This document shows, piece by piece, positions 2,990 through 63,013 of a stretch of DNA of 64,000 nucleotides. Location of the stretch: NCBI GenBank assembly GCA_021432605.1, contig MU271144.1, positions 2,538,606-2,602,605 of the forward strand, read 5' to 3'. The position numbers and the translations under genes are program-made. Source of the stretch: Coniochaeta sp. PMI_546. Taxonomy: Eukaryota > Ascomycota > Sordariomycetes > Coniochaetales > Coniochaetaceae. Each line of letters begins with the position of its first letter. Position 1 is the stretch's first letter. Under the pieces are notes generated by a model. The model was not told the origin of the DNA, made no database searches, and saw only the letters and a program-made list of their open reading frames with translations.

Positions 2990-4639
2990 CTACTCGGGGC
3001 TGTTACTACCTCCTGTCGATACCTCGAGTGCCCAGTCCAAGTGGCTTGGGGTGCCATTGATACGCGAGTCCACTCCTTTCTTTTTGTTTCTGTCCCTCCT
3101 AGTCTTGTCCTGAAGATCGAAGAGGTTATAGATATCTTGCCTCGAGAGCGGAGTACTAGCTGTAGAGACAAGTACAATTTCTCTCTTGTACATCCGAGGG
3201 TCCAGGGTAACACATCGCAGACCTTCATAAAATAGGACACAAACATCTCCTATTTCATCGAACGCCAGCCACACCATACCCCAGTCGTAATCAGGGTCTT
3301 TGACATACCAGTATCGGCCGCTCGAATCCCATCGATCTTCCGGGGCGGCGGATTTTATGACACATCGTGTATCTGTTCGGATCTCGAGAGGCAGACGGAA
3401 GAGTCCCGGTGGTGGATGATAAGTTGTTCCCGTCAGAAGGTAGACGGATCTTGGCCGTATCGAGGACGAGATGAGCGCATCAGCATGGGTGGCGTCTAAA
3501 TGCAGTAACTGTCTGTGAGCCCTGGCGAATATGTCCGGACCCAACTTGGTCAGCATGACTCCCATCGTGCGTCTGGAGCCTTGGCTTCCTATTGGTAAGA
3601 CGTAAGTCCGACACGCATAACAACATCTACACTCTTGGATACTGCAGCCACGCAGACATATTTCGAGCAGCGTACAGGTGATTTTGATGCCGCGGTTTGT
3701 GACCGAATGTTCGGTCGAATTGAGTATTTCCCAGTCACGCATGAGACCGAATTCTGTTATGTACCGTGCTAATACATGCACGTTCGAGTAGTCGCGATCA
3801 ATAAATCTCGCTTGATGGTTACACCCTGGTGGGCAAGCTCGGCGACGTCCAGCCCGGTATTCGAGTCCCAAGGGTGAAGCAGATGGCGACCATCCGAATA
3901 TGCTCAGATCGTTGCTGTGTCTGATAATCTCGTGTTGAAGACGGGTATATGCCTTCTCGCCCTCTCCGTACAGCAGTGGCATGTTGATGTCAAAGATTCC
4001 CAGGAGACAGTAGGCCATATCCTCGACCCTTGTTGTCTCGCGTCCAGTCGCCCATGCCATCTTTTCCGCAATCGACAACGCAGCCAGGCAGCTGCTGTCC
4101 GCCAGAACCCCTGGGTGAACATTTGTTATCTGCTGGATTCGATTAGAAAGTGCTCGTTTCGATCCTCGGCAGGTCCAAGTCTCGTCGTAGAAGCGCATGT
4201 TGCTAGGAGCGATTAACTCTTGTAGTGTCCAGCCCCGTTTGAACCATCTGCAAGACTGGAGGTCTGTCGTGTCTAACAGATCGGTCGCCGTTACACCTGA
4301 TATCTTTGGAAAGTCCGATAGGTAAGCATAGCAAACCCAGGCATTTTTGTACCATCGGAACATGGAGTTGATAGCTTCGCTAAGTTCAGCGCTGCTGGTC
4401 TTGTCGATGCAGCAGGTATCGATCCAGACGTAGTCGAGCTGGTCTCCTCTGGCAAGTCTGCAAGTTTCCAGGATCTTCGAGAACCCTTGTTTTGTAGCAG
4501 TCTCTCCGGTTTGGTCCATGTATTCCTGGTATGACACTTCCTCCTCCGTCCACGTGTGAGACAGGATCGCGTAGTGTTGCGGTACTTGTCGCAGCGCAAA
4601 GTCCTCGAGTAGCATTGTTTTCGTGTTGATTAACCGCAT
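2990..4639 (-). CDS. HET-domain protein (heterokaryon incompatibility family)
   Basis: A single exon of 549 residues. The N-terminus begins MRLINTKT and carries the classic HET domain over about residues 1-240. The three signature blocks are present: AILSHTW; YVWIDTCCIDK followed by SSAELSEAINSMFRWY; and WFKRGWTLQELIAP. Further family words are CYAYLSD and the downstream LLGIFDINMPLLYGEGEKAY block that normally follows the HET core in HET-E/HET-D-like proteins. No NACHT ATPase, WD40 or ankyrin module follows; the C-terminal 250 residues are unclassified. HET proteins trigger programmed cell death after non-self recognition between fungal strains. Whether this one acts in incompatibility or in other immune-like signalling cannot be read from sequence. 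All core residues seem intact, so I see it as a functional gene. Confidence 0.88.
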   Translation of the reverse strand: MRLINTKTMLLEDFALRQVPQHYAILSHTWTEEEVSYQEYMDQTGETATKQGFSKILETCRLARGDQLDYVWIDTCCIDKTSSAELSEAINSMFRWYKNAWVCYAYLSDFPKISGVTATDLLDTTDLQSCRWFKRGWTLQELIAPSNMRFYDETWTCRGSKRALSNRIQQITNVHPGVLADSSCLAALSIAEKMAWATGRETTRVEDMAYCLLGIFDINMPLLYGEGEKAYTRLQHEIIRHSNDLSIFGWSPSASPLGLEYRAGRRRACPPGCNHQARFIDRDYSNVHVLARYITEFGLMRDWEILNSTEHSVTNRGIKITCTLLEICLRGCSIQECRCCYACRTYVLPIGSQGSRRTMGVMLTKLGPDIFARAHRQLLHLDATHADALISSSIRPRSVYLLTGTTYHPPPGLFRLPLEIRTDTRCVIKSAAPEDRWDSSGRYWYVKDPDYDWGMVWLAFDEIGDVCVLFYEGLRCVTLDPRMYKREIVLVSTASTPLSRQDIYNLFDLQDKTRRDRNKKKGVDSRINGTPSHLDWALEVSTGGSNSPE

Positions 4640-5113
4640 TGTGGTCAGCAGGGGTACTAATTACACTCCAGTGAGTGAAGGTATCAGTTTCCCCTAGGCT
4701 GTGCAATATCTGAAGTTGATCAGATGTCGATAAGGTGTGGATCCTGTGGTGTTGGTCAAGGAACCGACGACTGCCTGATGATGGCGGTGTGGCACAGCTG
4801 AACTTAGCAACAGAGAGAACCCACGTCACGTGGCATACTAAACTCGAAATGCGGCAGCTTCTGAGTGGTCATTCACTTCGCCCGTCATCATACTGAGATA
4901 TCCGGAGGGCAGGAGCAATCCGTCGGACAAATGAGCAGACAAGGTCGGCAAGCAACGACATGACTTGGATCATTATCCGGTAAATTCCCAACATCACACA
5001 AGCGTAATCCATACATGATAAAGGTAGGAAAAGAACAGCAGAATCTAGAACATGGACCTTCTCAAATACTCCAAAACACCAAACTCGGAACCGAAAAGCA
5101 GCCAGCAAGATTC
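4640..5113. other. Intergenic / HET gene upstream region
   Basis: This is the promoter side of the HET gene and the 3' flank of the cupredoxin gene. No further gene, RNA or repeat was seen. Confidence 0.4.
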
Positions 5114-55269: not shown

Positions 55270-57220
55270 ATGCAACCGGGCCGCATGTTTTCGGGCATCA
55301 GCGTGCTCGCCCTTCTGGCACTTTGTGGGACAGCATCGGCAGCCAGGTTACCTTCTAGCGCGTTTGGAGTCCCTCCAGGTGATGCCACCTACGATTATGT
55401 CGGTACGTTAGAAAGTCCACCTAGCCAGTCGAGGTACTGTCTTCGATCGATTTCCGCAGTTCCGTGCCGTGTTTCTCGGCTAATCGACGGCTCCAGTCAT
55501 TGGAGGTGGTACGGCAGGTCTCGTTGTTGCGACTCGACTAGCAGCGTCAGGGGCTTCCGTCGGCATCATCGAAGCTGGCGGAGCATATGAGCTCGACAAC
55601 GGCAATCAGAGCGTCGTCCCCGGTTATGCCTTCTCGCAACCAGCTCTGGCTCCGGTAGAGGTCTTTCCGCCCCGCCCGCTAGTCGACTGGTCCCTGGTCT
55701 CCCAGCCTCAGACGGGCGCCGCCGGCCGCAAAGTCCACTATGCCGCCGGCAAGACTCTGGGTGGCACCTCGGCGCTCAATACCTTGGCCTACAACCGCGG
55801 CACCAAGGGGTCGTACCAGAAATGGGCAACTATAGTCGGCAGCACCGCTTACACCTGGGACAACTTCCTCAAGTACTTCATCAGGTCGAGCGAGCTGACG
55901 CCGCCCGACTTTGCCAAGCGCAACACACCCAATGCCACATTCACGTACGACACGTCCGTCTGGTGCACCGGCAAAGACTGCGGACCGCTGCAGGTCTCAT
56001 ACTCCAACTGGGTCGACCCGAGCCACACGTGGGTCGCCGCTGGTCTCAAGTACATCGGCCTCAACACCAGCACCATCGGCCACAACAGCGGGATCCTACA
56101 AGGCGGCGCCTACACGACCGAGACCATCGACCCCGATGATCCCTGGTACGGCACTGCCACGCGGTCGTCCTCGGAGAGCAGCTACCTCCGCTGGGCCATC
56201 GCCAACACCCAGCTGATGGTCCACTACCGCACCTCGGCCACCAAAGTTCTCTTCGCCTCCGGCAGGGCAAGCGCCGTGTCCGTCTCGACGGAAGGCTACC
56301 CCTACACCCTCACGGCCAAGAAGGAAATCATCCTCTCGGCGGGAACCTTCCACTCGCCCCAGCTCCTCATGGTATCAGGCATCGGACCCGCAGCCAAGCT
56401 CTCGTCCCTCGGCATCCCCGTCATTTCCGACCTGGCAGGCGTAGGGCAGAACCTCCAAGACCAGATCTTCTTCTCCGTCCAAAACGGCATGAACACACCC
56501 TCCGGCCCAAGCATCCTATCGGACCCGGCGCAGGAACCAGCCGCCCTCCAGCAGTACCTCACCAGAGCCGCCGGACCATACAGCTCGGCAGGCGGCTACA
56601 TCGCCTTCGAGAAGCTCCCCGACCCATCGCGGACCTCCTTCTCAGCGCGCACCAACAGCCTTCTGAACGCGCTGCCCGCGGACGTGCCGGAGGTAGAATA
56701 CCTAGCCGGCTCATTCGCAGGCACCGGCAACGGCGTAGTGACCGTAGGCGATTTATCCGCCGCTATCCTCAACCCCTTCTCCAGGGGCAACGTGACCATC
56801 TCCAGCGCGGACGCCAACGCGCCTCCCCTCATCGACATGGGCTGGCTGACCGACCCGGCCGACGCCGAGGTCGCGGTGGCAGCCTTCAAGCGGCTGCGAC
56901 AGGCGTGGGCCGCGCCGACCGTCTCGGCCGTGAAGGTTGGGCCCGAGCTCAGGCCTGGCAGCGCGGTGCAGACGGACGCACAGATATTGCAGTGGATCCG
57001 CGAGAATGCTATCCAGATATGGCACGCGTGCGGGACGAATGCGATGGGTAGCAGTGCCGCGAGTGGTGCGGTTGTAGGACCGACGGCCAAGGTGTTTGGT
57101 GTTGATGGGTTGAGGGTGGTGGATGCTAGTGTCATCCCGTTTGCGCTGCCGGGGCACCCGCAGGCGACTATATATGCGCTTGCGGAGAAGATTGCGGATG
57201 ATATTCTCAATGGGAGGTAG
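55270..57220 (+). CDS. Secreted GMC oxidoreductase (FAD-dependent)
   Basis: Two exons, 55270-55402 and 55497-57220, phase 1 join, 618 residues. A signal peptide is present (MFSGISVLALLALCGTASA after an optional upstream Met). The FAD-binding GGGTAG follows directly, then EAGG. GMC signature 1 is AAGKTLGGTSALN; signature 2 is AGTFHSPQLLMVSGIG. The catalytic His is in WHACGTNAMG, and the second base in LPGHPQATIYALAE. Length and secretion fit the glucose dehydrogenase / aryl-alcohol oxidase / choline dehydrogenase-like subgroup. Substrate specificity cannot be read. Such enzymes oxidise alcohols or sugars outside the cell, some making H2O2. Confidence 0.92.
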
Positions 57221-62870: not shown

Positions 62871-62877
62871 AAAAAAA
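62871..62877 (-). terminator. RNA polymerase III terminator (T7)
   Basis: Seven consecutive T on the minus strand, four bases after the tRNA 3' end at 62882. This is the standard pol III stop for nuclear tRNA genes and supports that the gene is transcribed by pol III. Confidence 0.85.
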
Positions 62878-62881
62878 GGAG

Positions 62882-63013
62882 TAGCTGCGCTCCGTTTCGA
62901 TCGGAGGACCTCCGGGTTATGAGCCCGGCTATCGTTTGTAGTCAGTATAATGGGTTCTTTTGGTGTGAGTCAAGTTTTGAGAACTTACCGCGCTTCCACT
63001 GCGCCACGCAGCT
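62882..63013 (-). tRNA. tRNA-iMet: Initiator tRNA-Met (CAU) with a 60-bp insertion between D arm and anticodon arm
   Basis: Two parts fold together perfectly. Part 1 (63013-62989) has AGCTGCG (acceptor), TG, then the GCGC / GCGC D stem and one G. Part 2 (62928-62882) has the anticodon stem-loop CCGGG-CTCATAA-CCCGG, AGGTC, T stem CTCCG / CGGAG with loop ATCGAAA, CGCAGCT and a final A. The joined form is 72 bases. Initiator hallmarks are all seen: A1-U72 pair, ATCGAAA instead of TTC in the T loop, and three G-C pairs next to the CAT anticodon loop. The 60-bp insertion (62988-62929) begins GTAAGT and ends ATAG, with CTGAC 13 bases before its end. Nuclear tRNA introns normally sit after base 37, whereas this one sits between bases 25 and 26. 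The TGGCGCAGTGG A box is intact. Confidence 0.92.
62929..62988 (-). other. 60-bp spliceosomal-looking intron within the tRNA gene
   Basis: Donor GTAAGT, branch-like CTGAC, acceptor ATAG and a length of 60 fit the introns of the protein genes in this window. It has no visible bulge-helix-bulge next to the anticodon. The boundaries could shift by a base. Confidence 0.7.

Follow-up and report, generated by a model that had tools for sequence, protein, structure and literature searches.

All initiator tRNA-Met genes found in a Coniochaeta genome are interrupted after position 26 by a U2-type intron, very probably removed by the major spliceosome

Introns of nuclear tRNA genes canonically lie between positions 37 and 38 and are cut out by the TSEN endonuclease. 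The initiator tRNA-Met (iMet) genes described here, from Coniochaeta sp. PMI_546, likewise carry an intron in a nuclear pre-tRNA, but it lies at 26/27, has GT-AG and branch signals and lacks the anticodon-loop geometry of the canonical introns, which are common in other tRNAs of this host. Spliceosomal introns are said to occur in the nuclear rDNA of ascomycetes and, as in iMet, they interrupt a structured RNA of translation; rRNA, however, is transcribed by Pol I from genes present in very many copies, whereas the iMet genes, five in number, have Pol III promoter elements. The U2 gene of Rhodotorula hasegawae reportedly contains an mRNA-type intron. The U6 RNA of S. pombe is a Pol III transcript from which an mRNA-type intron is spliced out (PMC10484740, in the part covered). 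These fungal snRNA genes resemble iMet in being small non-coding RNA genes with mRNA-type introns, but they encode the spliceosome's own RNAs, for which an origin by reverse splicing near the catalytic nucleotides has been proposed, whereas iMet is no part of the spliceosome.

Introns at non-canonical tRNA positions, as in iMet, are known from the Guillardia nucleomorph, Cyanidioschyzon and Crenarchaeota. The Guillardia insertions measure 3-24 nt, those of C. merolae and of archaea are related to the BHB type, and for none of them do the parts of PMC4090602 and PMC3978253 covered mention spliceosomal signals. In the portion of PMC4090602 devoted to eukaryotes, non-canonical introns are named from nucleomorphs and Cyanidioschyzon. 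Green algae and Thermofilum pendens have disrupted initiator genes too, in that their iMet genes are circularly permuted, but the halves are joined at 37/38 or 59/60, and these genes do not contain an intron with spliceosomal signals (PMC3978253, in part); disruption of an iMet gene as such is therefore not new. The word stem "spliceosom" is absent from the main text of the tRNA-intron review PMC4090602 and occurs once, about protein genes, in PMC3978253, while a 2026 review sets tRNA splicing by protein enzymes apart from spliceosomal splicing (PMC13149111, in part). No report of a spliceosomal intron in a nuclear tRNA was found among titles and abstract starts of the open-access literature, which is weak evidence of absence. 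The intron described here would be of a known kind, in a kind of gene for which the same, weakly informative search of the open-access literature yielded no other case.

The window, i.e., the whole stretch of 64,000 nucleotides that was analysed, contains such a gene, with the following features.

63013-62882, minus strand: whole iMet gene, intron included, as read from the sequence
62989..63013, minus strand: exon 1, 25 nt, AGCTGCGTGGCGCAGTGGAAGCGCG; acceptor 5' strand, positions 8-9, D arm and position 26
62996..63006, minus strand: A box (Pol III internal promoter) by sequence, TGGCGCAGTGG, in exon 1
62929..62988, minus strand: intron of 60 nt with U2-type GT-AG signals, separating tRNA positions 26 and 27
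62983..62988, minus strand: 5' splice site GTAAGT, preceded by G at exon position -1
62941..62947, minus strand: TACTGAC, resembling a branch site, with the candidate branch A at 62942 and 13 nt from there to the intron end
62929..62931, minus strand: 3' splice site TAG; the intron ends in GATAG
62882..62928, minus strand: exon 2, 47 nt, CCGGGCTCATAACCCGGAGGTCCTCCGATCGAAACGGAGCGCAGCTA; anticodon arm, variable loop, T arm, acceptor 3' strand and discriminator A
62893..62903, minus strand: B box (Pol III internal promoter) by sequence, CGATCGAAACG, in exon 2
62871..62877, minus strand: run of seven T, Pol III terminator-like, by sequence

The elements in exon 1 and exon 2 are taken to be the A box and the B box. 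The joined exons make 72 nt, which ARAGORN calls tRNA-Met(cat) and for which the predicted fold is a complete cloverleaf (-32.1 kcal/mol). Direct reading gives a CAT anticodon, A1-U72, a GGG/CCC anticodon stem, A54 and A60; exon 2 holds the anticodon loop CTCATAA and the T loop ATCGAAA, and CCA is not encoded. A1-U72, the GGG/CCC stem and these two loops are marks of fungal initiators. A54 is given as a feature of initiator tRNAs in part of PMC3978253. The preliminary description had identified an initiator tRNA-Met from A1-U72, ATCGAAA and GGG/CCC in the joined parts, and both the direct reading and ARAGORN bear this out. Its 60-bp insert, starting GTAAGT and ending ATAG with CTGAC before the end, is present at 62988-62929, with the branch-like motif in the form TACTGAC, and the T7 terminator that it placed just past the gene lies at 62877-62871. 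The insertion had been put between the D arm and the anticodon arm, outside the canonical site; by the standard position count, with the ends taken as GT-AG, it falls between positions 26 and 27 and not at 37/38, leaving the anticodon loop intact. The window gene was missed both by ARAGORN run without introns and by Rfam at its gathering cut-off.

The assembly comprises 24 contigs and 33.5 Mb; the longest contig seen has 4.3 Mb. Run genome-wide with a tolerance of three mismatches, a pattern covering the anticodon and T arms of the initiator gave five matches, all of them exact; the backward control gave none. BLAST of the joined tRNA placed exon 2 at the same five sites, each preceded upstream by part of exon 1. 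The five genes lie on four contigs (C1, C2 with two, C3 and C6), and each of these loci (L009-L013) consists of exon 1, an intron of 56-60 nt and exon 2, with the insertion at the same bond in 5/5. All 72 exon letters are identical among the copies, those of exon 1 and of exon 2 alike. An A box and a B box are recognisable by sequence in all five, and each is followed by a run of 5-7 T that starts 4-8 nt after the last tRNA base. The motif TRGYNNARNGG-N7-GTAAGT matched the genome five times, at the five iMet genes, with four matches in the reversed control. The gene had been expected to exist in few copies, and five were found, all interrupted; intact copies elsewhere, named beforehand as what would count against the reading, were looked for genome-wide by pattern search and BLAST in the 33.5-Mb assembly, and no uninterrupted iMet gene was found. 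The census comes from one assembly and its search counts may be lower bounds; if the five-gene census is complete, the insert must be removed in vivo, since no intact copy exists. The exon-2 pattern and the exon-1/GT patterns had 0 matches in bacterial, archaeal and viral contig collections, which has no bearing on fungi, and blastn of phage records gave no match.

The introns of the five copies share only 48-69% pairwise identity, while in the five-copy alignment all eight end positions (GTAAGT and AG) are invariant. Of the interior columns 8/53 are invariant, four of these being the ACT.A of the branch-like motif. The 5' splice site reads GTAAGT in 5/5 and agrees with the pattern GTRNGT, the 3' splice site is TAG or CAG (YAG) in 5/5, and the branch-like motif takes the forms TACTGAC (three copies), AACTGAC and AACTAAT, with 10-14 nt after the branch A. 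The introns of L009, L011 and L012 are the most alike (68-69%), so duplication of iMet genes after intron gain is likely on the sequence comparison. As they can be aligned and are probably related by duplication, the five introns are not five independent observations. The lack of TTTT in all five, considered as a sign of Pol III constraint, was set aside as uninformative, because TTTT occurs in 5/14 tubulin introns of the host (chance of 0/5 about 0.11).

Those tubulin introns served as the reference set. Fourteen were predicted by protein homology at three loci (L103, L104 and L105), with alpha- and beta-tubulin protein sequences as guides and an alignment permitting only GT...AG; of the five tubulin matches, L102 had too few words in common with the guides and L106, which adjoins L105, was taken as the same gene. 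An "intron" in P0001 alcohol oxidase (GTCCAC, 127 nt) was removed before scoring as a doubtful gene model and the other 14 were kept. An alcohol oxidase gene lies in the window at 55484-57220. The tubulin introns measure 53-121 nt (median 61.5), a range that includes the lengths of the iMet introns; 4/14 start with GTAAGT, and by the scoring used for iMet they have 10-25 nt after the branch A. A model built from their 5' sites, branch sites and 3' sites scored the iMet introns at 19.9-24.4, the tubulin introns at 12.7-23.4 when each was left out in turn, and two introns in a U6 gene of the host at 21.0 and 22.6. The score of the weakest iMet intron, 19.9, was reached or exceeded by 1/200,000 random window segments of equal lengths and by 5/1,425 window segments of 56, 58 or 60 nt of the form GT...AG, the window's own iMet intron being among the segments examined. 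Its recurrence in 5/5 iMet genes and the rarity of such scores among random segments show that the insertion does not arise by chance. Counting introns in the window with a loose regular expression gave 44 against 36 in the reversed control, and this approach was dropped in favour of the tubulin introns; a stricter expression gave 40 against 15 in the control over 246,324 bases, overlapping loci included.

The snRNAs of the host match these signals. Three U1 loci, all below the Rfam cut-off, carry ATACTTACCT at the 5' end, and the ACTTACC of this end is complementary to GGTAAGT, i.e., the exon -1 G with the 5' splice site. Three U2 loci carry GTAGTA, complementary to the ACTGAC/ACTAAT branch sites. 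Besides, snRNA genes are themselves interrupted in this genome, with GT-AG introns in 1/2 U6 matches and 2/4 U2 matches. The U6 gene on C2 (L121 186-404; G000:C2, from 3339185) has introns at 221-275 (55 nt) and 304-367 (64 nt), and its Rfam score is below the cut-off, probably because of these interruptions. Its first intron contains a B-box-like GTTCGAATCCC together with CACTAAC, as though the intron housed the gene's internal promoter for Pol III. Two U2 genes, one on the minus strand at L126 1501-1757 (G000:C6:181631-181887) and one at L127 1501-1755 (C3:2677559-2677813), have a single GT-AG intron of 65 and 63 nt, respectively, each with a TGCTAAC branch and placed in the hairpin after the branch-binding region. 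A second U6 match, on the minus strand at L122 163-262 (G000:C3:77062-77161), is diverged and without the two introns, and a U2-like match at L128 1501-1704 (G000:C7:1661007-1661210) is diverged and without such an intron; these two may be pseudogenes or a second, diverged snRNA set. The fourth U2 match is weak (67 bases). The 5S genes showed no interruption, the best 32 of 39 matches spanning exactly 120 bases, with 47/1,875 candidates scored. The GT-AG introns in the U6 and U2 genes suggest that the host spliceosome probably already processes structured RNAs and Pol III RNAs.

Considering the lack of intact copies and the splicing signals, we infer that iMet is spliced, and we favour, at a probability of roughly 0.9, the reading that all iMet genes found carry one U2-type intron at 26/27 and that the major spliceosome splices their Pol III pre-tRNA. 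The preliminary description had left the choice between the spliceosome and a relaxed TSEN cut; the former is favoured, as the end and branch signals are kept while the interior drifts, and the latter is not, with no BHB-like junction found. A canonical TSEN intron was rejected, the insert lying at 26/27 with the anticodon loop intact, and the BHB type was rejected by a register scan for a 4-bp helix between two 3-nt bulges at the junctions: in 27 registers per copy no BHB-like structure appeared in any of the five, the central helix reaching at most 3/4 and the best total 4-5 of 7 pairs. Folding predictions for the five unspliced precursors retain three of the helices, acceptor, anticodon and T (mean pair probabilities 0.91-1.00), and show no evident common intron structure. 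For L009 and L012 (2/5) the best fold has no D arm, and at the 5' splice site, which is predicted to be paired in part, the mean unpaired probability is 0.24-0.65. Cleavage of a non-canonical intron by TSEN with joining by tRNA ligase, the route of archaea, nucleomorphs and Cyanidioschyzon, has precedents in introns at BHB-type sites, including 25/26 in archaea, and the eukaryotic enzyme is able to cut archaeal-type BHB substrates (PMC4090602, in part). Many ectopic Guillardia introns have no defined BHB (PMC3978253, in part), so a missing BHB alone does not decide against this route, and TSEN is presumably present, since many other host tRNAs have anticodon-loop introns. Nevertheless, the eukaryotic enzyme is described as measuring how far the splice sites lie from the tRNA body (PMC4090602, in part), no junction resembles a BHB, and removal by TSEN would leave the invariant GTAAGT, the branch motif and the YAG without explanation; we regard it as very unlikely.

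A Pol II or longer capped transcript, spliced like an mRNA before tRNA processing, would do away with the need to splice a short uncapped Pol III transcript. The A and B boxes with immediate T-run terminators at five dispersed loci favour Pol III, however, and the interrupted U6 gene offers a local parallel, which together make such a transcript slightly more improbable still. Least probable of all is that the five loci are pseudogenes or decoys and that an uninterrupted iMet gene lies outside the assembly or escaped the searches. In eukaryotes, D- and T-arm insertions mostly affect one of many synonymous copies, supposed to be pseudogenes (PMC4090602, in part), and counts from a genome search may fall short. 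Here, on the other hand, 5/5 copies are interrupted at the same bond without a single exon difference over 72 nt, which sets them apart from the situation in that review; the A box, B box and T5-T7 terminators are present in 5/5, and the assembly has only 24 contigs, of up to 4.3 Mb among those seen.

Under the spliceosomal reading, Pol III would transcribe the gene from the A box in exon 1 and the B box in exon 2 and stop at the T run. U1 would pair with G|GTAAGT and U2 with ACTGAC/ACTAAT, the major spliceosome would join position 26 to position 27 via the lariat reaction, and the joined 72-nt tRNA would then fold and be matured. Since every iMet gene found carries a spliceosomal intron, initiator supply, and with it translation initiation, would depend on the spliceosome; that maturation of iMet is obligately spliceosomal, with translation initiation tied directly to splicing capacity, we consider likely. 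One may guess that the intron arose by reverse splicing into RNA followed by reverse transcription. An essential tRNA appears to have crossed from splicing by protein enzymes to splicing by the spliceosome. If so, the spliceosome is able to process a short, tightly folded tRNA precursor, and the supply of initiator would be linked to splicing also under splicing stress and splicing inhibitors. Together with U2 and U6, iMet would be an example of non-coding RNA genes acquiring introns, a gain that could be dated by comparison with relatives.

When introns were allowed, ARAGORN named the five iMet genes, whose exons are identical, Cys, Gln, Glu, Arg and Arg, with the intron misplaced, so annotation pipelines could hide such genes; as tRNA finders miss or misname them, further examples may go unnoticed in the genomes of fungi. 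Further tRNAs of this host may also carry spliceosomal introns. Those recovered are intronless or have an anticodon-loop intron, in 90 ARAGORN calls of which some are at overlapping loci, the program allowing introns only at that place. The tRNA census was partial (63/897 Rfam candidates scored), and genes for Asp, Glu, His, Ile, Pro, Trp and Tyr were not recovered; one "Ile" call is a Phe gene. For tRNAs other than iMet, a search for GTANGT insertions following the D arm, at two further D-loop sizes, gave 9 and 6 matches against 19 and 15 in the reversed controls. By eye none of these has a complete D stem in register, and one would pair if shifted, at a place where ARAGORN finds no tRNA; all were rejected. 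The elongator tRNA-Met at C3:526811-526919 has, by eye, a CAT anticodon and an anticodon-loop intron, and was miscalled Thr(agt) by ARAGORN. A HET (heterokaryon incompatibility) domain ORF lies in the window at 2990-4660 on the minus strand. On C5, Gly(gcc) tRNA genes that have an anticodon-loop intron adjoin others that lack one, at about 1318455-1318525 and 1318551-1318649 (L082 1503-1573 and 1599-1697, minus strand); Gly(gcc) genes also occur at L083 and L097-L101, and the introns that ARAGORN assigns measure 8-35 nt among the copies.
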